Positions 5,960 to 64,000 of a stretch of DNA of 64,000 bases are shown here, one piece after another. A program made the position numbers and the translations under genes. Origin of the DNA: Synechococcus sp. BL107 (lineage in GTDB: Bacteria; Cyanobacteriota; Cyanobacteriia; PCC-6307; Cyanobiaceae); contig NZ_DS022298.1 in NCBI RefSeq assembly GCF_000153805.1, positions 734,756 to 798,755 of the forward strand. The letters are read 5' to 3'. The notes beneath the pieces were generated by a model. It was not told the DNA's origin, ran no database searches, and saw only the letters and a program-made list of their open reading frames with translations. Within the stretch, counting starts at the first letter, position 1. Each line of letters opens with the position of its first letter.

Positions 5960-6823
5960 TCAGGAATCGCGTCCGCCACGGCTCCGCTTGGACGTCTTGC
6001 GACGTTTCCGGAGCACATATTGGTTGCTGGGTTTATTCCGCTTGCGGGTCTTAAGACCGAGGGCGGGTTTGCCCCAAGGCGTCACAGGACCGGAGCGACC
6101 GATGGGTGCTCGGCCCTCACCACCACCGTGAGGGTGGTCACAGGGGTTCATCACACTGCCTCGAACCTGAGGCCGCCGTCCGAGCCAACGGCGACGTCCG
6201 GCTTTGCCGAGGCTTGTGTTGCGAACTTCTGAGTTACCAACTTCGCCGAGGGTTGCGTAGCACTCACGCCGGACCAACCGAACCTCGGTGGAGGGCAGTT
6301 TGAGAGCGACGTAATCGCCTTCCTTGGCCATGACCTGAGCACTGGCACCAGCGGTTCGAACCATCTGTCCACCGCGACCGGCATAAAGCTCGACGCAGTG
6401 CACGCTCGAACCAAGCGGTACGGCTGAAAGCGGCATTGCGTTGCCGTTTTCGATCGGAACTTCTGGCCCAGACACGACGGTTTGGCCCACCTGAACTCCT
6501 GCTGGAGCAAGGATGTAGCGCTTTTCGCCATCGGCGTAAAAGAGCAAGGCCAATCGCGCATTGCGATGGGGGTCGTAGTGGATCGCAGCCACCTTGGCGG
6601 TTACGCCGTGCTTGTTGCGGCGGAAATCAACGAGGCGGTACAAACGCTTATGACCACCACCTCGGTGGCGACAAGTGATGACGCCTCTGTTGTTGCGGCC
6701 TTTTTTGCGGTGCTTCGACACCACAAGGCTTCTTTCCGGCTTGCGGCCGGTGACCTCACTGAAATCGGTGACAACGCGGGTGCGTGTACCGGGGGTGTAG
6801 GGGCGGAATTTACGGATTGCCAT
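5960..6823 (-). CDS. rplB: 50S ribosomal protein L2
   Basis: Core large-subunit protein required for peptidyl transfer. The 287-residue product has [17 protein letters not shown] near residue 48 and the conserved C-terminal [19 protein letters not shown] with its essential histidine. It lies between rplW and rpsS. Confidence 0.98.
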
Positions 6824-7141: not shown

Positions 7142-7769
7142 CTCCGTAAACCTCCTGGATGGTTGTGAGAGCGTCCTCTCCCACGACCAAAGAATTGGCG
7201 TGGAGAAGGTCGAAGACGTTGAGGTGATTCGCTGAAATCAGCTTGACCTTCTCCAGGTTGCGGACGGAGCGACGGACCATTTCGGATGGGTTCGTCAGAA
7301 CGATCAACACCTTGGTGTCTGCGGCGATGCCGAGGCGTCCGAGGGCTTCCGTGATCTCACGTGTTTTTGGAGCTTCAAGGGATGTCCCGAAGTCCTTCAC
7401 AACAGTGATGTCGTCGATACGAGCCATGAGCGCTGTGCGCAGGGCCGAGCGACGTTCCTTGCGATTCATCGCAAGGTTGTAACTCCGAGGCTTGGGTCCA
7501 AAAATGATGCCGCCGCCTGGACGCAGAGGAGTTCGAACAGAACCTTGCCTTGCACGGCCTGTTCCTTTCTGCTTGTAGGGCTTGCGGCCACCACCACGGA
7601 CTTCTGACCGGGTGAGTGTGCTTGCAGTGCCTTGGCGCATGTGGGCCTGCTGTCGCAGGACTGCACGGTGCATCAAGTCAACTGCTGTGGCTTCTTTCGC
7701 CACTTTGAGGTCCAAGGTTGCCTTGCCAGCTTCCTTCCCCTGCCAATCGCGAACTACACAACTAGCCAT
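7134..7769 (-). CDS. rplD: 50S ribosomal protein L4
   Basis: Large-subunit protein lining the exit tunnel. It contains the L4 core [20 protein letters not shown] and [19 protein letters not shown]. The ATG at 7769 overlaps the rplC stop and has GGAGG six bases upstream, so it is preferred to the GTG one codon earlier. The product is 211 residues. Confidence 0.97.
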
Positions 7770-8425
7770 CACTTACCTCCTTTGGCAGGTTTTGCGCCCA
7801 CACGCACTGCTGGCTTGATGTTCAGGAGTGCGCCCGGTTTGCCAGGCACGGAACCTTTAACAACCAGAAGATTGCGATCGCTATCGACGCGCAAGATGGT
7901 CAACCCGCGGGTGGTTGTTTTCTTGCCGCCATAACGGCCAGACATCCGTTTACCCGGGTAGATCCGTCCTGGCGTGGTGCCAGCACCGATGGAGCCCGGT
8001 TGCCGGTGGTTTTTAGAACCGTGGGTCATCGGGCCGCGGCTGAAACCGTGGCGTTTCTGAAGACCTGCAAAACCGCGACCCATGGTGTCGCCGCTTACAT
8101 CCACTTTTTGACCAGCTTCGAAGTCGCTGACTGTGATGGACCCACCTAACTCGAGGCCGTCGACGTTGTCGACGCGGTACTCGCGTAGGTGTCGCAGAAG
8201 ATCTTCACCGGATTTGGTGAGATGGCCTTTAGAAGGCTTGTTGATCAATTTCTCGCGGGTTTCGCCGAAACCGATCTGCACCGCGGCATAGCCATCGGTG
8301 TCATCGTTTTTGAGTTGTGTGATGCGGCAGGGACCGGCCTCGATCAAAGTGACGGGGACCGCTCTGCCCTGCTCGTCGAAGAGCTGGGACATGCCCAACT
8401 TCTTCCCGAGAATGCCGATTGACAT
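7769..8425 (-). CDS. rplC: 50S ribosomal protein L3
   Basis: Large-subunit assembly initiator near the peptidyl transferase centre. It begins [20 protein letters not shown] and contains [20 protein letters not shown] and [18 protein letters not shown], diagnostic of L3. The upstream open frame is ignored because the ATG at 8425 gives the family's usual 218 residues. This is the first gene of the operon; no rpsJ (S10) precedes it. Confidence 0.97.
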
Positions 8426-20078: not shown

Positions 20079-20631
20079 GGGGTCGGTGAAATTCTTAACT
20101 CATTCAGCTGAGCGTATCGGTGAGGAGCCCTTTGCGCCATCACTCTTAGGCTTCGATCTCCAATGCCTCACTGTTCTCCAGCGTTCGTTACTGGCGGTGG
20201 CCCCCCAAGAAGGATGCGGTTTGCTCCTCGGAACAGGTCTGCGAACCTCACGGCTGAGGCTCGTAACGCTTTGGCCTACCTGCAATGCATGGGGCAAATC
20301 AGACTGGGTGAGTGATGCTTTAGGAGATCGTGAGACCCGATTTGCGCTGGATCCCAGGGAACAAATTGCAGCGCAGCGATGGGCCAGGTTGCATGGCTTG
20401 CAGGTCTTGGGTGTCTGCCATTCCCACCCCAAAACGGCACCAGAACCGTCAATTTGGGATTGTGATTGGGCGGAACCCAATCAGTTGATGCTGATTTTGT
20501 CTGGCATGCGAAAGCTGCGTGCCTGGTGGTTGGGTGCTGATCGGGTTCCCCTCGAAATCCCGATTGAGATCTGGGAAAATCCCATCCATGCAGCCAAGTC
20601 ATCCCACCCCACAGCAGACCCTGTCCTCTGA
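20077..20631 (+). CDS. JAMM/MPN (Mov34) metallopeptidase
   Basis: Zinc isopeptidase-like protein. The JAMM motif is complete: a Glu upstream (APQEGCGLLLG) and HSHPKTAPEPSIWDCD, fitting HxHP-X6-S-xx-D. Bacterial relatives process ubiquitin-like sulfur carriers, such as Mec acting on CysO. The start is uncertain: ATG 20077 lies against the divergent CAAD start and GTG 20086 is possible. The gene overlaps moeB by 44 bases in another frame, suggesting they act together. No ubiquitin-like carrier gene is adjacent. Confidence 0.8.
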   Translation: MGSVKFLTHSAERIGEEPFAPSLLGFDLQCLTVLQRSLLAVAPQEGCGLLLGTGLRTSRLRLVTLWPTCNAWGKSDWVSDALGDRETRFALDPREQIAAQRWARLHGLQVLGVCHSHPKTAPEPSIWDCDWAEPNQLMLILSGMRKLRAWWLGADRVPLEIPIEIWENPIHAAKSSHPTADPVL

Positions 20632-21754
20632 TGAGCGGGGGCGCTATGCCCGACAGCTCATTCTTCCGGAAGTCGGACTTGCCGGACAGGAGCGTCTCAA
20701 GGCCGCAGCAGTGCTCTGTGTTGGCGCAGGGGGCTTGGGCTCTCCCCTTCTTTTGTATCTAGCTGCAGCGGGGATTGGTCGCATTGGCATCGTTGACGGA
20801 GATGCTGTTGAGCTCTCAAACCTGCAGCGTCAAGTCATTCATCGCTCCGATGCGGTGGGTCGCTCCAAGGCCAGGTCTGCTGCCAAAAGTCTTCAGGCGT
20901 TGAACCTTCATTGCCAGGTTGATGTGCACGACATGATGCTTGATATGAGCAACGTCATGGATCTAATCGCGGACTACGACGTTGTCTGCGACGGCACCGA
21001 CAATTTTGCTAGTCGATACTTAATTAATGACGCCTGTGTGTTGTCAGACAAGCCACTGATTTATGGCTCTGTTCAACGCTTTGAAGGTCAGGTCACTGTT
21101 TTCAATTGCAATCCTGAAAGTCCTAACTTCCGCGATTTGTTGCCTGTTCCTCCTTCGCCTGGTGCGATCCCCTCGTGCTCAGAGGCAGGGGTGATGGGTG
21201 TGATGCCGGGTTTGATTGGCCTACTTCAGGCCACTGAAACGATCAAGTTAATCACTGGCATTGGTCGTTGCCTCGATGGCCGTTTGCTGGTGGTGGATGC
21301 TCTATCCATGCGCTTTCGAGAACTCACGCTGCGGCGTGATTCTGGTCGTGCTCCGATCAAGGACCTGATTGACTATTCGCAGTTCTGTGGTGCAGCCACA
21401 ACAGAGATGGATTCTTTTGCGATGGAAACGATCAGTGTTACTGAGCTCAAAGCTCTTCTCGATGGAGATGCTGGTGATTTGGCGCTTGTTGATGTTCGCA
21501 ATCCTGCTGAAGCAGAGATTGTGGTGATCCCTTCTGCGGTACTTATTCCACTCTCCAAGATTGAAAGCGGAGAGGCGATTGAGCAGGTCCGCTCCCTGGC
21601 AGAAGGGCGCCGTCTCTTTGTGCACTGCAAGTTAGGGATGCGTTCGGCGAAAGCCGCTCAACTCCTTGCTGAGCATGGAATCTTGGCAACAAACGTGACA
21701 GGAGGTATCGATGCCTGGGCTCAAGAGGTTGATCCAATGTTGCCCCGTTACTAA
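20588..21754 (+). CDS. moeB: E1-like adenylyltransferase/sulfurtransferase MoeB with rhodanese domain
   Basis: Activates the C-terminal Gly of ubiquitin-like sulfur carriers (MoaD/ThiS type) by adenylation and passes sulfur through a rhodanese domain. N-terminal ThiF/MoeB domain: VLCVGAGGLGSPLLLYLAAAG, DGTDNF, and SCSEAGVMGVMPG with the probable catalytic Cys. C-terminal rhodanese from about residue 285, active loop VHCKLGMRSAKAA. The zinc CxxC pairs of E. coli MoeB are absent, as I recall for cyanobacterial relatives. The ATG at 20588 gives 388 residues and avoids a longer overlap with the JAMM gene. Confidence 0.88.
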   Translation: MQPSHPTPQQTLSSDERGRYARQLILPEVGLAGQERLKAAAVLCVGAGGLGSPLLLYLAAAGIGRIGIVDGDAVELSNLQRQVIHRSDAVGRSKARSAAKSLQALNLHCQVDVHDMMLDMSNVMDLIADYDVVCDGTDNFASRYLINDACVLSDKPLIYGSVQRFEGQVTVFNCNPESPNFRDLLPVPPSPGAIPSCSEAGVMGVMPGLIGLLQATETIKLITGIGRCLDGRLLVVDALSMRFRELTLRRDSGRAPIKDLIDYSQFCGAATTEMDSFAMETISVTELKALLDGDAGDLALVDVRNPAEAEIVVIPSAVLIPLSKIESGEAIEQVRSLAEGRRLFVHCKLGMRSAKAAQLLAEHGILATNVTGGIDAWAQEVDPMLPRY

Positions 21755-21793
21755 TAATCTTGTTCTTTAAAATATTGAGGATTTGATTCAAAT

Positions 21794-21937
21794 TTAGGTT
21801 TTTACCTGGTCTTGCAAAATACGCTCTTCTTGATATTCGTGGCGATCAAATGCAGTGCCTTTGTATTTGAGTGATGGAGTAATTTTATTATAAATATTAC
21901 TTCCATCTAATAAAGTAGAGAGAAATTTTGAATGCAA
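21794..21937 (-). CDS. Possible micro-protein, 47 residues
   Basis: Short frame starting with TTG at 21937 and ending at a TAA at 21794. The translation looks protein-like: after KFLSTLLDGSNIYNK comes SLKYKGTAFDRHEYQEE, an L-x-Y-x-G pattern loosely like the DUF4278 motif, then a charged C-terminus. The frame stays open some 20 codons upstream without a standard start, so it may be a remnant of a longer gene. Function unknown. Confidence 0.3.
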   Translation of the reverse strand: MHSKFLSTLLDGSNIYNKITPSLKYKGTAFDRHEYQEERILQDQVKT

Positions 21938-22245
21938 GGTTTGTCGTGCTGTGCTGGGAGATAGCCCAACACATGAAGAAGTTGATGCAGTAGTTGCTTA
22001 TGGTTTAGAACAGTATCGAATTGACTTTCTGCACTGCCGCTGAAAAAACTAACATGTTCATTTGTTGAGAGATCATCGTCACAACTCCCTCCAGGATTGC
22101 AGCGAAAATAAAGAAGCCTAAAAATCAGCAAAAACAAAACTTGATGAATCTATAAGACCAATTATTGCGAGATAGTCTAAATACTTAAGTAATGAAAATA
22201 ACTTTGAATTCATGGCTTAATTTGTTGCAGACTTGATATTGTATT

Positions 22246-22250
22246 AGGAG
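22246..22250 (+). promoter_or_regulatory. Ribosome binding site deciding the TTG start of the Nif11 gene
   Basis: AGGAG lies seven bases before the TTG at 22258. With no in-frame ATG near the conserved start of the protein, this supports TTG as the initiation codon. Confidence 0.6.
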
Positions 22251-22257
22251 CAAAGCC

Positions 22258-22506
22258 TTGGTAAAAGAAGTTCAACCGTTTGCTTTTTACCACGCCTCGG
22301 AGCGACGCAGACAGGCGGAAGCCTTTTTAGAGAATGTAAAAAGCGATTGTAGGTTGCGCCATCGAATCAGCATTGCAAATAGCGATAACGAATTAGTGAA
22401 GATCGCCGAGGAGGCGGGATACCACGTGTCTTCAGCAGATATTTGGTTGTATCAAGACCGCACTTTTAAAAGAAAGGCTGGCATTCGAGGATGGTATTCC
22501 AATTAA
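22258..22506 (+). CDS. Nif11-domain protein without double-glycine leader end
   Basis: The 82-residue product matches the Nif11 leader-like domain: an N-terminal helix with AFLENVKSDCRLRHRI, then NELVKIAEEAGYHVSSADI. In many marine cyanobacteria this domain is the leader of RiPP precursors (prochlorosin type), cut after a Gly-Gly or Gly-Ala site. Here that site and a Cys-rich core are missing; the C-terminus is basic and aromatic (FKRKAGIRGWYSN). The start is TTG with a strong ribosome binding site. The gene sits in an AT-rich patch and is followed after one base by an unknown gene. Confidence 0.7.
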   Translation: MVKEVQPFAFYHASERRRQAEAFLENVKSDCRLRHRISIANSDNELVKIAEEAGYHVSSADIWLYQDRTFKRKAGIRGWYSN

Positions 22507-22507
22507 T

Positions 22508-22945
22508 ATGAATCAGAAATCCTACGCCGCTGCACTTCAGCTTATTCGTTTGATGGAATTCGACGAAAGTTTGGCTGCTGCCGCAGAACCATTCAATTGG
22601 TATCATAATCTAATACATCAAATGTCAGACTATGAGGAGAATAATTTCAATCGATCACAGCTTATCAAGCAGTTAGTGAATCAACCCGAGCAATGCAGTT
22701 GTCTTGTAGATGCATTTTTTAAGATCTGCATTCTTGATGGATTTAGTTTTAATTGTGTTGGAACTTTTAAGGATTTAAGCCTGGCCATAGATTGCTATGT
22801 CAGCAATATTTTTAACTTGGATGATGCAGGTATTCACGTAGAGTTTCTTCGGTCTGACCAGGAGGATGGCGATTTTATTTGTATTACTTCTCATGTATTT
22901 TCAAAAGAAATTAGCCGAGAAGGATATAATAGTCATCAATTTTAA
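22508..22945 (+). CDS. Hypothetical protein paired with the Nif11 gene
   Basis: Not recognised. The 145-residue product is acidic and predicted soluble, with helical N-terminal segments (KSYAAALQLIRLMEFDESLAAAAE) and a C-terminal part likely alpha/beta (ICILDGFSFNCVGTF, HVEFLRSDQEDGDFICIT). Seven or so cysteines are scattered without a metal motif. It begins one base after the Nif11 stop and shares its low G+C, so the two are almost certainly co-transcribed and may share a history of transfer. Confidence 0.65.
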   Translation: MNQKSYAAALQLIRLMEFDESLAAAAEPFNWYHNLIHQMSDYEENNFNRSQLIKQLVNQPEQCSCLVDAFFKICILDGFSFNCVGTFKDLSLAIDCYVSNIFNLDDAGIHVEFLRSDQEDGDFICITSHVFSKEISREGYNSHQF

Positions 22946-23596
22946 ATGAAGTATTTTCGCCTTCTAATTGTCTTTTATTTGGCTTGTTAATTCTAGTATC
23001 GAGTATCATTCAAGCTTGTAAAAATCCCAGCAAAATCTTTTAAATGTCTTGAGCCTTTTGTGTAGGTATAGAGATCCAGAGGGGCAAGCAGTTCCACTGT
23101 TCCCGCCAGCTGGAAATATCTGATTGGCACGAACTGATATCGCAATAACGGAGATTGCACTTGCCAGGGCGGCTCTCTGCATCTGGTTGCATGCTTGCGC
23201 TATGTAGTGCCCTTGCTAGTATTGCATGCAAGAAATGCACCATATCTAGTGCTCCGTGCTCTACTTGCTGCTGTTGTTTGTGCCTCTGTATGGCTTCTTG
23301 ACAATCCAGAGAAGTGTTGTTTCCCATCAACAACATCAGCGCACACAACAGCAGTAGCTGGCTGGTGAAGTTGGAGCTATTTCCCTGGCCAATGCATTAT
23401 CTATTCCTGCTGATGATGTAATCCATTCCTATAACTGGGCTTGCAGCGCAGCGTTAGATCGTTCCTGCTGCTGTCGACTTGCAGGCTAAGTCTTAATGTC
23501 TATCAATGTTAGATCCAGCCTATTTAAGTCATTCGTCTAGCTAGCTATCTTTTGCATGTTGGATTCATTTTTTTGTTCTGACCGCCCTTTATTTCG
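22946..23596. other. Gene-poor stretch between the Nif11 pair and cobO
   Basis: About 650 bases without a confident gene. It contains a weak minus-strand frame (23040-23348) and a plus-strand frame of about 43 codons ending near 23488 with a Cys-rich end (DRSCCCRLAG), neither with a clear start signal. Both could be remnants of decayed genes. No repeat pair, transposase or tRNA was found. Confidence 0.4.
23040..23348 (-). CDS. Doubtful hypothetical protein
   Basis: A 102-codon frame with a Gln-rich stretch (HKQQQQVEHGALDMVHFLHA) and several Cys and Trp residues near the end. It matches nothing I know, has no clear ribosome binding site, and lies in a stretch that looks decayed. It may be chance. 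Confidence 0.22.
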   Translation of the reverse strand: MCALMLLMGNNTSLDCQEAIQRHKQQQQVEHGALDMVHFLHAILARALHSASMQPDAESRPGKCNLRYCDISSCQSDISSWREQWNCLPLWISIPTQKAQDI

Positions 23597-24745
23597 CTAA
23601 TAATCCACTCCTCGCTTGAGATCGACACCTTGTTCGGCGTAGTGTTTGTGGCACACCATCTCAGAGTGGATGCTGGCGAGATCAAAGTAGGCGGGCTGGT
23701 TCTTGCAGCGTCCTGTGATGATTACCTCGGTTTCGGCCGGTTTTCGCAGCAGCGTTTGCATAATCGGTTCCACCGGTAAAAGCTCTAGATCAACGGTGGG
23801 GTTGAGTTCATCCAAAATCACGGTCTTGTAGAGACCACTGGAAATGGCGGCACGGGCGATTTCCCAGGCCCGTTCGGCTTCCACGTAGTCGATGGGTTCC
23901 TGTTGCCCGCGCCAGACGATGGCATCGCGGCCCGATCGCAGATGGTCGACCAAGTGGGGGTAGCTCTCACGAAGTGCCGCAATGGCTGCATCCTCGGTGT
24001 AGCCGGTTCCCCCCTTTAGCCACTGCAGGATTAGAACGCGATGGCTCTTGTCTTGGCTGATGCCCCGACCGATGGCCTGAAGTGCTTTGCCTAAGGCACT
24101 GGTGGATTTGCCTTTGCCTTCTCCGGTGTAGATCTCGATCCCACTGTTAACGCTGAGGGGAATCACCCTGTCGCCCTCCATGCCGGGGCGGCGATGGGCC
24201 CGCATTTCTGAGTGAAGATCGGCACCCTGTACGAGCGCTGAAGGGGCGGCCCGTCCGGTCACGATGATTTCCATCCCTTCCGGTCGGTTGCTCAGGGTGC
24301 GCACCACATCATCGATATCCAGCAAACCGAGCTCCAGCACGGGATTGAGTTCGTCGAGCACCACCACTGAATAGAGAGCGCTAGCAATGGCTCCCTTGGC
24401 AATCACCCAGCCCCGTTGGGCTTCATCGCGATCGAAACGGGTGGATTCTTCGGCGGTGAAGTGGTCGGCTCGGCCCGTCCGTAGGTGGTCGATTAAGTGC
24501 GGGAAACCCTGTTGCAGCGCTTCAATGGCGGCATCTTCGTCATAGGCCCGTCCGGGCCCTTTCAGAAACCGAAGCAGCAGAACACGGGTTCGACGCTGTT
24601 CGCAGATTCCCAGGCCGATGGTGCGCAGGACGACGCCGAGTGCTGCTTGGCTTTTGCCTTTGCCCTCACCGTCGTAGATGTGCAGCTGACCATGGCTGCG
24701 TTCGCGGCTATCTGCGGCAGTGACAATGCCGATGCTTCGGGGCAT
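23597..24745 (-). CDS. cobO: Tandem-domain cob(I)alamin adenosyltransferase-like protein
   Basis: Member of the CobO/BtuR/CobA family, which adenosylates corrinoids in B12 synthesis. The 382-residue protein holds two copies of the roughly 180-residue domain, each with the P-loop GEGKGKS (YDGEGKGKSQAALG near residue 27; YTGEGKGKSTSALG near 209), the LDELNP motif and the ending HSEM. Ordinary CobO proteins have one copy. Both copies look intact, so an intramolecular dimer is likely. It is divergent from larE. Confidence 0.85.
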   Translation of the reverse strand: MPRSIGIVTAADSRERSHGQLHIYDGEGKGKSQAALGVVLRTIGLGICEQRRTRVLLLRFLKGPGRAYDEDAAIEALQQGFPHLIDHLRTGRADHFTAEESTRFDRDEAQRGWVIAKGAIASALYSVVVLDELNPVLELGLLDIDDVVRTLSNRPEGMEIIVTGRAAPSALVQGADLHSEMRAHRRPGMEGDRVIPLSVNSGIEIYTGEGKGKSTSALGKALQAIGRGISQDKSHRVLILQWLKGGTGYTEDAAIAALRESYPHLVDHLRSGRDAIVWRGQQEPIDYVEAERAWEIARAAISSGLYKTVILDELNPTVDLELLPVEPIMQTLLRKPAETEVIITGRCKNQPAYFDLASIHSEMVCHKHYAEQGVDLKRGVDY

Positions 24746-61502: not shown

Positions 61503-62387
61503 TCAGAAGTGGCAGCCAAATGGACGGAAAGCCACGTAATCCGTCATCTTCGGTGGATTGTGCCCTGTGTACTGCTGTTGGGGAAGTTTGGCAGGTGTCC
61601 GAGTGATTGCCGTATAGCTGAAGAAAGGAGAAGGTTTTAAATCTTCCCGTGCAGCAATGGCAAGAGGGTTGATGGTGCGGCTGTTGCGACCTTGTGCGTT
61701 GTCGCTGACGGCAACCTTCGTGCCACCAAGTTCCCGCATCAGATTGAAGGAACGTGTGAACATTCCAGCATATGAATCGTGAGTTCTTTCGTAAGGAACG
61801 ATGTCCGAACCAAAGACTTCTGTGTATTCAGCAGAATCGGTCAGTTTGTCGATTAGGGCGTCAAAACCTTCTTCAGCCTGTAGCTTGATGTGGTCTTGAA
61901 CTTCTGCTTGGTTCAGAGGTGCTCGGCCAAGTAAATGCTTGAAGTTCAATTCGACTCCACGCTGGGCACCAACTGAATGGAAGAAGTTTGATTTGTAAAA
62001 ATCAGACTTAGCCAAACCGTTTACGAAGTCACGAACAGTGATTTCACCGTTCAATAGTCGCGCCTCAAGTGACGTTTCTCTTTGGCTTTCTCTGGGGTGC
62101 AGGTTACCTAGTACTTGACGATAAGCAGCCGCGATCACTCGCTCAAGAGCTGCTGCATTGTCTGGATTGTACTGATCAAACACTGATCCGAAGGGGCATT
62201 CGGCGTGCAAGCGGGGCCCAATTCCAATCCCCATCGATGCACAGTGCTGACGCTTGTACTCAGCGCGTACTCCTGCGACTGTTCGGTGTGCTGTGTTTTT
62301 ACCGGCTTTGCTTTGTGTGGAGAAAGCAGCGGGTCCGGTTCGAGTAGCCGAAGTGAGAGACTTCAGGCTGGTTTCTGTGCCGAGCAT
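61503..62387 (-). CDS. mpeC: Phycoerythrin II-associated linker (gamma subunit) MpeC
   Basis: Chromophore-bearing rod linker that joins PEII hexamers. The N-terminal about 50 residues end with KRQHCASMGIGIGPRLHAEC; Cys49 matches the bilin site reported for the WH8020 protein. A Pfam-type linker domain follows (FGSVFDQYNPDNAAALERVI, RVIAAAYRQVLGN, LLNGEITVRDFVNGLAKSDFY, FKHLLGRAPLNQAEVQ). A C-terminal Pro-rich extension runs to the end. Length 294. It lies downstream of mpeBA beyond a terminator-like hairpin. Confidence 0.92.
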   Translation of the reverse strand: MLGTETSLKSLTSATRTGPAAFSTQSKAGKNTAHRTVAGVRAEYKRQHCASMGIGIGPRLHAECPFGSVFDQYNPDNAAALERVIAAAYRQVLGNLHPRESQRETSLEARLLNGEITVRDFVNGLAKSDFYKSNFFHSVGAQRGVELNFKHLLGRAPLNQAEVQDHIKLQAEEGFDALIDKLTDSAEYTEVFGSDIVPYERTHDSYAGMFTRSFNLMRELGGTKVAVSDNAQGRNSRTINPLAIAAREDLKPSPFFSYTAITRTPAKLPQQQYTGHNPPKMTDYVAFRPFGCHF

Positions 62388-62554
62388 GATTTGTGAGGGG
62401 GTGATGTTGTGGACGGTTCGTCACATCTCCCTGAAGGAATTACAGGTCTTGTAAAAACCTTTTGGTCAAAGTGACGTTCTCTAGAGATTCAAGCTTTATT
62501 TGTTGGCTAAATAAAATGTCAGAGACTTTCGGTTGATTGTTGCTTGCAATTGGT

Positions 62555-62581
62555 AAAAAAAAGGGTGGGCATTGCCCACCC
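62555..62581 (-). terminator. Terminator or attenuator between mpeBA and mpeC
   Basis: Stem GGGTGGGC/GCCCACCC with a three-base loop and, on the minus strand, eight T. Since no other promoter is obvious before mpeC, partial readthrough could set the MpeC to MpeBA ratio. Confidence 0.85.
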
Positions 62582-62620
62582 CTTTGTTTGCTGTGTTTTA
62601 ACAACAACCAGGCTGATTGA

Positions 62621-63118
62621 TCAGCCCAGTGAGTTGATCACGTAGTCCAGCAACTGGTTGTAGGAGGTCAGAGCCTGGGGGCTCATGTCGCGAGGGGCGC
62701 AACCGTCGTTACGCATCTGGGAGAAACCAGCCACGTAGGTGCCAGCGTCGATGCTGAGCGCCTTGTAGACCTCTTTTTGGCCATTGATAGCCAGCTCATC
62801 CAGGGGGCCTGTGCCGCCGGCGACCAAGCAGTAGTTGATCAGACGCAGGTAGTGAACAAAGTCACGCTTGCACTTCTCTTTGCCTTCAGTAGCGCACTGG
62901 CGGGGCTGACGGCCAGTAGCACCGTTGGGGTACTGGGCGTACACAGCGTCAACAGCACGCTGAGCAATGCCGTCGTAGTTCTGGGAGAGCTTTTCAGCGG
63001 CTTCCAAACGTGCAGCAGCGCGTTGGATAGAACCCTGAACTGACTCCATGTCGGAGGAAGAAGGGAAGCGGGAAGCGCTATCGGCAGCGCCGACCACGGT
63101 GGTGATGACGGACTTCAT
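62621..63118 (-). CDS. mpeA: Phycoerythrin class II alpha subunit
   Basis: PEII subunit with three bilin sites: C75 and C83 ([20 protein letters not shown]) and C140 ([14 protein letters not shown]). The additional Cys75 distinguishes it from CpeA. Length 165, starting [20 protein letters not shown]. It follows mpeB by 44 bases. Confidence 0.96.
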
Positions 63119-63162
63119 TTTGAGGAAGTAAGTGGGTGTGGACGTTTAAATAAAGACGTGGC

Positions 63163-64000
<838 letters not shown>

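Follow-up and report, generated by a model that had tools for sequence, protein, structure and literature searches.

Two small genes lie side by side on the plus strand of the window, by which we mean the whole 64-kb stretch of DNA analysed here, itself part of a genome consisting of one contig of 2,285,034 bases. The first, ORF1 (22258..22506, +), encodes an 82-amino acid Nif11 protein without a RiPP core, a member of a subfamily to which we give the label "RGWY"; its start codon is TTG, preceded at a distance of 7 nt by an AGGAG (22246-22250), and the aligned start of its homologue in genome G027 is ATG. Its Nif11 nature, proposed in the first-pass annotation, is borne out by two profiles that it matches above their cut-offs, namely Pfam Nif11 (PF07862; residues 19-61, E 2e-8, 34.8 bits, cut-off 23.8) and the Nif11 RiPP-leader model TIGR03798 (E 1.5e-12, 47.5 bits, cut-off 32.3). 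The second, ORF2 (22508..22945, +), encodes an acidic orphan of 145 amino acids (pI 4.55), for which neither Pfam nor NCBIfam yields a match up to E 10; its homologue in the sister genome G006 (2,234,828 bases) is 82% identical. Its ATG at 22508 is separated by a single base from the end of ORF1 at 22506, and the pair has a G+C content of 0.395, compared with 0.543 for the window, values as low or lower being found in 2.5% of the window's 688-bp stretches, at four places; spacing and common low G+C are both as initially described.

The pair is contained in an AT-rich insert (21755..23596; G+C 0.397; no strand assigned) located between a moeB-like gene (20519..21754, +), identified by Pfam as encoding a ThiF plus rhodanese protein, and a cobO-like gene (23597..24745, -), the corrinoid adenosyltransferase product of which is recognised by Pfam in two matched stretches. 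A search for cobO loci returned 30, and the 17 belonging to the window's genus (L071-L087) were examined: the distance between the aligned ends of moeB and cobO is 8-26 bases in 11 of the 17, and in four there is no moeB match within 1.5 kb. The gap amounts to 1.84 kb in the window and, in G006, to 1.43 kb of other DNA that does not include the pair. The moeB-cobO junction is a variable site, the AT-rich DNA that fills it in the window being unrelated to that in G006 (L072).

In G006 the pair lies elsewhere than at this junction, about 1.8 kb from a 390-amino acid integrase-like ORF whose Phage_integrase match falls just under the cut-off (26.1 vs 27.1 bits); no tRNA was detected by ARAGORN in the 19-kb G006 stretch. 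A complete lack of adjacency of ORF1 and ORF2 elsewhere had been named beforehand as refuting the pairing, and in G006 they are adjacent. Comparison by blastn yields a single 798-bp block (22105-22902, 84% identity), the sole match in 19 kb of G006, which includes a stretch upstream of the pair (22105..22257, +), part of which is recognisable in G027 by alignment. Because only 798 bp align to the relocated G006 copy, the pair and its upstream stretch behave, as far as the alignment indicates, as one small block at different sites.

Rfam gave no match over 21500-23700, and a promoter and terminator scan of 21700-23650 returned 4 and 1 sites, respectively, vs 5.2 and 1.4 expected. On the plus strand it reported a single promoter-like site, at 21729-21758, and none within 22105-22257. 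A palindrome at 22170-22203, the arms of which are 76% complementary, is a lead only.

The comparison between window and G006, carried out with our own scripts on this one genome pair, gave a dN/dS of 0.117 for ORF1 and of 0.11 for ORF2, at a dS of 0.57-0.70 and with gene order and one-base spacing maintained; within ORF2 the N-terminal half (0.018) is far more constrained than the C-terminal half (0.252). Because of these ratios both ORFs look like real genes and both show what, in this genome pair, appears to be purifying selection. An AT-rich, variable junction in which no other gene is recognised by eye is where one could expect decaying insertion debris with neither gene working, but the low dN/dS of both ORFs, together with the last 22 codons of ORF1, in which four synonymous and no non-synonymous changes have occurred, make such an explanation scarcely credible.

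The C-terminal tail of ORF1

Residues 61-82 of ORF1 (22438..22503, +) constitute a tail that carries a FKR...RGWY motif and is predicted by AlphaFold2 to form a beta-hairpin. In Nif11 RiPP leaders, according to the excerpted account of PMC2887384, the family-wide similarity is closed by a cleavage motif, usually Gly-Gly. No Gly-Gly is present in ORF1; an "AG" at residues 74-75 coincides with the end of the TIGR03798 match, but these two residues vary across the family and the similarity stays strong past them (14 sequences), while beyond residue 75 there is only IRGWYSN and no low-complexity region rich in Cys, Gly or Ser. Within the family, mean pairwise identity falls from 0.667 over residues 62-80 to 0.524 over the Nif11 part (19-61) and 0.467 over residues 1-16, as calculated with our own scripts on 14 sequences, some of them nearly identical, after exclusion of L139, which has an in-frame stop, and of contigs L101-L105. 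The amino acid changes that separate ORF1 of the window from that of G006 number 12 in the first 60 codons and none in the last 22, and each of the 14 tails measured has a positive net charge, from +1 to +5. Judging from these alignments, the best-conserved segment of ORF1 is its tail, which is the opposite of a hypervariable RiPP core.

As to the enzymes that a precursor would require, LanM (TIGR03897) has no match at E <= 1 in the whole one-contig genome, in a search whose sensitivity is not demonstrated, none of the 14 control genomes having given a match over cut-off. No C39 peptidase is found over cut-off in the genome, whereas controls over cut-off were obtained in 8 of 14; the sole match (17.9 vs 22 bits) covers only positions 39-119 of 133 and is located at C1:286277, far from the window. 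Of the initial statement that neither LanM nor a transporter is present, the LanM part holds within the limits of that search, and for transporters the analysis covered the C39 peptidase/exporter. The C39-like partial stretch (L106, G000:C1:286277) belongs to a frame of 992 codons, which might encode an ABC exporter.

The score above the TIGR03798 leader cut-off and the ending of this match on "AG" could be taken as signs of a RiPP precursor whose core is very short (around RGWYSN) and whose modifying enzymes are encoded elsewhere; prochlorosin-type precursor genes are indeed scattered over the genomes of these bacteria, and some are isolated, as stated in the excerpted text of PMC10783134. 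Such a precursor is very improbable, being at odds with an AG that is not conserved, with a tail that is the most conserved part of the family and is predicted to be a hairpin, and with the lack of a LanM match and of a C39 match over cut-off in the genome. Because ORF1 has no Gly-Gly site and no variable core and because its tail is conserved and predicted to be folded, the alternative conclusion, already advanced in the first-pass annotation, that it is a Nif11 protein and not the usual RiPP precursor is well supported; a non-precursor role would fit the conserved, predicted-folded tail.

The NCBI model passed by ORF1 labels its matches as RiPP precursors, and the existence of a well-separated coreless subfamily, the tail of which is conserved and predicted to be folded, suggests that a protein is not made a precursor by its passing a leader model. 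Furthermore, ORF1 represents a compact, testable protein with which to address the role that the Nif11 domain plays without peptide production. No description of a coreless Nif11 family of this kind was found in the literature searched, which omits most subscription papers.

Distribution of the RGWY family and of ORF2

A search of 98 genomes with the single ORF1 sequence gives matches at E <= 0.001 in 10, of which six owe them to other Nif11 genes alone, and with a six-sequence profile some match at E <= 0.001 is obtained in 361 of 400 genomes. Near-full-length profile matches (96-153 bits, the next match listed scoring 49 bits) occur at at least 15 places in 15 of the 400 genomes, this figure standing for the best matches listed, with up to 13 candidates scored per genome, so that genomes rich in Nif11 genes may hold missed copies. 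Six of these 15 family members are rows of the profile (G000, which is the window's genome, G006, G027 and G012) or identical to one (the G362 and G324 copies equal rows L103 and L104 except for the start), and nine are new. Four belong to the window's genus and 11 to one other genus (g64) of the same family. The homologue of G169 carries an in-frame stop, and therefore the RGWY Nif11 gene can be lost.

The surroundings of these genes differ. Seven g64 copies, and likewise L103 and L104, have a common neighbourhood of four small or medium-sized orphan genes plus DUF3303; in L103, L126, L127 and L129-L133 the synteny comprises three orphan genes (about 100, 64 and 80 amino acids), an RGFY-type Nif11 gene, a protein of 158-169 amino acids whose N-terminus is hydrophobic, and DUF3303; Pfam gave no match for those orphan genes that were tested, in L103. 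Four g64 copies are flanked by an M16 peptidase gene (identified by Pfam in L138 and by eye in three) and by a DUF4912-like gene that is homologous in all four genomes and below the Pfam cut-off in the two tested (L137, L138). The G012 copy adjoins a lipase-like gene, beyond which come DUF427 and a methyltransferase, and the G027 copy is placed between a phycobilisome linker gene and a cupin-like gene, whose cupin match is below cut-off. The pI of the whole protein ranges from 5.8 to 9.5 across the family, with 9.25 for ORF1 of the window and 7.99 for that of G006. ORF1 is most likely an accessory gene that occurs at differing chromosomal sites of marine Synechococcus.

A spread beyond cyanobacteria, suggested by records labelled "Coxiellaceae" (L104) and "Gammaproteobacteria" (L105), was rejected. 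These public MAG contigs (UBA1530 and EAC81, respectively) look misbinned because both contain marine Synechococcus gene neighbourhoods: the neighbours in L104 share 80-100% identity with their counterparts in Synechococcus L103, and the lipase-like gene of L105 shares 92% with that of Synechococcus L028/L102, the other genes beside it being the same too. No relatives of ORF1 were found among viral contigs. In the window's own genome, two further Nif11 genes (L016, L020; G000:C1:800322-800866) lie just beyond the right end of the window, an end that contains a phycobilisome linker gene (Pfam) and phycoerythrin-like genes recognised by eye (61503-63927).

Whole ORF2 is present in two of 98 genomes, that of the window and G006, a third matching its C-terminal half alone. 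Its N-terminal part (22508..22702, +) is related to solo proteins of 47-65 amino acids, a family with matches in 11 of 400 genomes, and its C-terminal part (22712..22906, +) to solo proteins of about 64-70 amino acids, matched in 5 of 400. The window's genome has one solo N-type and two solo C-type genes (L013, C1:1424668; L011, 2192696; L059, 2075130), and the ORF2 of G006 is 13 residues shorter, its end coinciding with that of the solo C-type proteins of L009-L011. ORF2 is, to judge by these relatives, a fusion of two small orphan families also found as separate genes; since it fuses their relatives, the usual gene-fusion argument predicts that solo N-type and C-type proteins may bind each other.

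Searches of the two halves with Pfam gave nothing significant for the members of either set (best E 0.072 and 0.15), one member of the N-half set having a VapB-like match at E 0.15; the best E was 0.14 for the C-half against PDB sequences and 0.028 in PHROGs, where ORF1 had no match. Relatives of ORF2 were found neither in the genome_contigs set nor in viral contigs or phages, and the halves taken separately have none in viral contigs. A solo N-type gene of G011 is located about 0.5 kb from a Phage_integrase gene; near a weak C-type match in G026, an ORF taken by eye as an integrase had no Pfam match. DUF3303 is found near six of eight g64 N-half loci as well as near the seven g64 type-A ORF1 homologues, and a methyltransferase with DUF427 near the solo N-half genes of G000 and G006 as well as near the G012 ORF1 homologue; these common neighbourhoods of the ORF1 and N-half families would likely be a chance overlap if such variable sites are few, and count as a lead, not as evidence.

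ORF2 adjoins two of the 15 close ORF1 homologues, those of the window and of its sister G006, and was not seen within 1.5 kb on either side of the other 13. In view of this distribution, and of the separate relatives that its halves have elsewhere, the earlier suggestion of a dedicated partner was not upheld. An adjacency seen in two sister genomes only, between ORF1 and a protein whose parts have their own distribution, is what would result from two unrelated accessory genes brought together by chance in one lineage, ORF2 being irrelevant to the function of ORF1. However, since order and one-base spacing are kept at a dS of 0.57-0.70 and at a different chromosomal site, the block has stayed together, and the chance explanation is somewhat unlikely. 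The same spacing in two genomes, the pI of 9.25 vs 4.55 of the two products in the window and the existence of one small block at different sites, a form that mobile addiction modules often take, would agree with an obligate two-component module, e.g., one that is toxin-antitoxin-like or in which one protein has the other as its own inhibitor or chaperone. We nevertheless consider a module of this type unlikely, given that ORF2 was not seen beside 13 of the 15 homologues, that ORF1 of G006 is much less basic than that of the window, and that no significant toxin, antitoxin or defence family was recognised in either protein by Pfam, by NCBIfam or by PADLOC, the latter giving 0 families up to E 1 for ORF1 and ORF2.

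Predicted structure and possible role of ORF1

AlphaFold2, run on ORF1 with five sequences, predicts helices at 7-29, 31-38 and 43-52 and strands at 62-66 and 72-76, the two strands making up the predicted hairpin of the tail. The best of five models has a mean pLDDT of 82.5 and a pTM of 0.69, two others being poorer (67.1 and 62.8); ORF2 modelled alone (pLDDT 41) gave no usable model. Foldseek returned no match of the ORF1 model at E <= 0.001, the best having E 0.14, and none at this threshold among viral models, and VIA-align returned nothing at Z 5. The top VIA-align row is FurB (Z 3.4, rmsd 3.2, 56 residues), and 16 of the 29 rows shown are winged-helix or LOTUS domains as judged from their titles and families; the rows are tied, and VIA-align itself warns that such Z values may reflect only a common arrangement.

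Like the winged-helix domains (FurB 2o03, ArgR 1b4a, LOTUS 3s93), the ORF1 model displays three helices followed by a two-stranded hairpin, and the RGWY Nif11 family could consist of winged-helix-like nucleic-acid-binding regulators in which the three Nif11 helices are combined with a basic wing. The likeness is a predicted one, however, all the matches are weak and tied, and helix 43-52, the third and the one in the recognition-helix position, is not basic, an argument against DNA binding of the ordinary kind; a winged-helix regulator is in our opinion decidedly unlikely. If it were true, one fold would be common to a class of small regulators and to the Nif11 leaders of cyanobacterial RiPPs, in which a cleavable core would replace the wing; ORF1, Unk10 (see below) and other mobile Nif11 genes like them would then form a picocyanobacterial regulator family. 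Nif11 and "winged helix" were not found mentioned together in the literature searched, from which most subscription papers are missing.

Because the third helix is not basic and the fold matches are weak and tied, we commit ourselves only to a "small adaptor or regulator". The best explanation, to which as a whole we give an even chance, is that ORF1 is a stand-alone folded Nif11 protein, acting as adaptor or regulator, to which ORF2 has been joined in this lineage. The three Nif11 helices would be followed by a conserved basic beta-hairpin taking the place of the cleavage site and core of a RiPP leader; ORF1 would most likely act whole and inside the cell, the hairpin being its likely contact surface with a protein or a nucleic acid. 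In the window's lineage the mobile accessory ORF1 gene would have become joined to ORF2, the acidic product of which fuses two small orphan domains; ORF2 is probably expressed through translational coupling and may be a binding partner of ORF1.

Comparison with known systems

Nif11-derived RiPP precursors (TIGR03798, N11P), the prochlorosins among them, are like ORF1 in having the Nif11 domain and a score above cut-off; ORF1 differs from them in that Gly-Gly and the variable Cys/Ser/Gly-rich core are replaced by a conserved tail predicted to be folded. Prochlorosin (lanthipeptide) systems also possess a LanM/ProcM-type synthetase, none of which was matched in the genome of ORF1 at E <= 1 in the search of undemonstrated sensitivity described above. 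The closest solved Nif11 structure found is the MppE leader of a Moorena producens Nif11 RiPP (PDB 9zn4; profile E 0.0034), which VIA-align superimposes on the ORF1 model over 57 residues with Z 3.2 and rmsd 3.7; 9zn4 is, however, the structure of a leader peptide, whereas the ORF1 model adds the C-terminal beta-hairpin. In a metatranscriptome, transcripts listed as those of a "Nif11 domain-like protein" were higher with added iron, according to the excerpt of PMC9723758.

Another point of comparison is Unk10, a Nif11-domain protein of the type IV chromatic acclimation island of marine Synechococcus, as described in the excerpted text of PMC3877281. A 107-amino acid Nif11 protein encoded in the window's genome at C1:1136481, beside AraC-type and PBS-lyase-type HEAT proteins, is presumably Unk10; in the chromatic-acclimation-like island of this candidate, AraC-type or related HTH matches were obtained for two proteins, in one case below cut-off. 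The candidate is absent from the six own-genome matches of ORF1 at E <= 10, its C-terminal part is unlike the FKR...RGWY of ORF1, and there are no fci or lyase genes beside ORF1. A DUF4912-like gene is found near the Unk10 candidate (L069, G000:C1:1130000-1142000; 6482-6805 and 7380-7928) and, in four g64 genomes (L136-L139), as immediate neighbour of the RGWY Nif11 gene, the homologue of this g64 neighbour being about 0.6 kb from the candidate with 51-62% identity; as a lead, it may link the RGWY Nif11 genes to pigment or light regulation. On the other hand, Unk10 resembles ORF1 in being small and island-borne and in combining the Nif11 domain with another C-terminal part, and in the excerpted text of PMC3877281 a core goes unmentioned.
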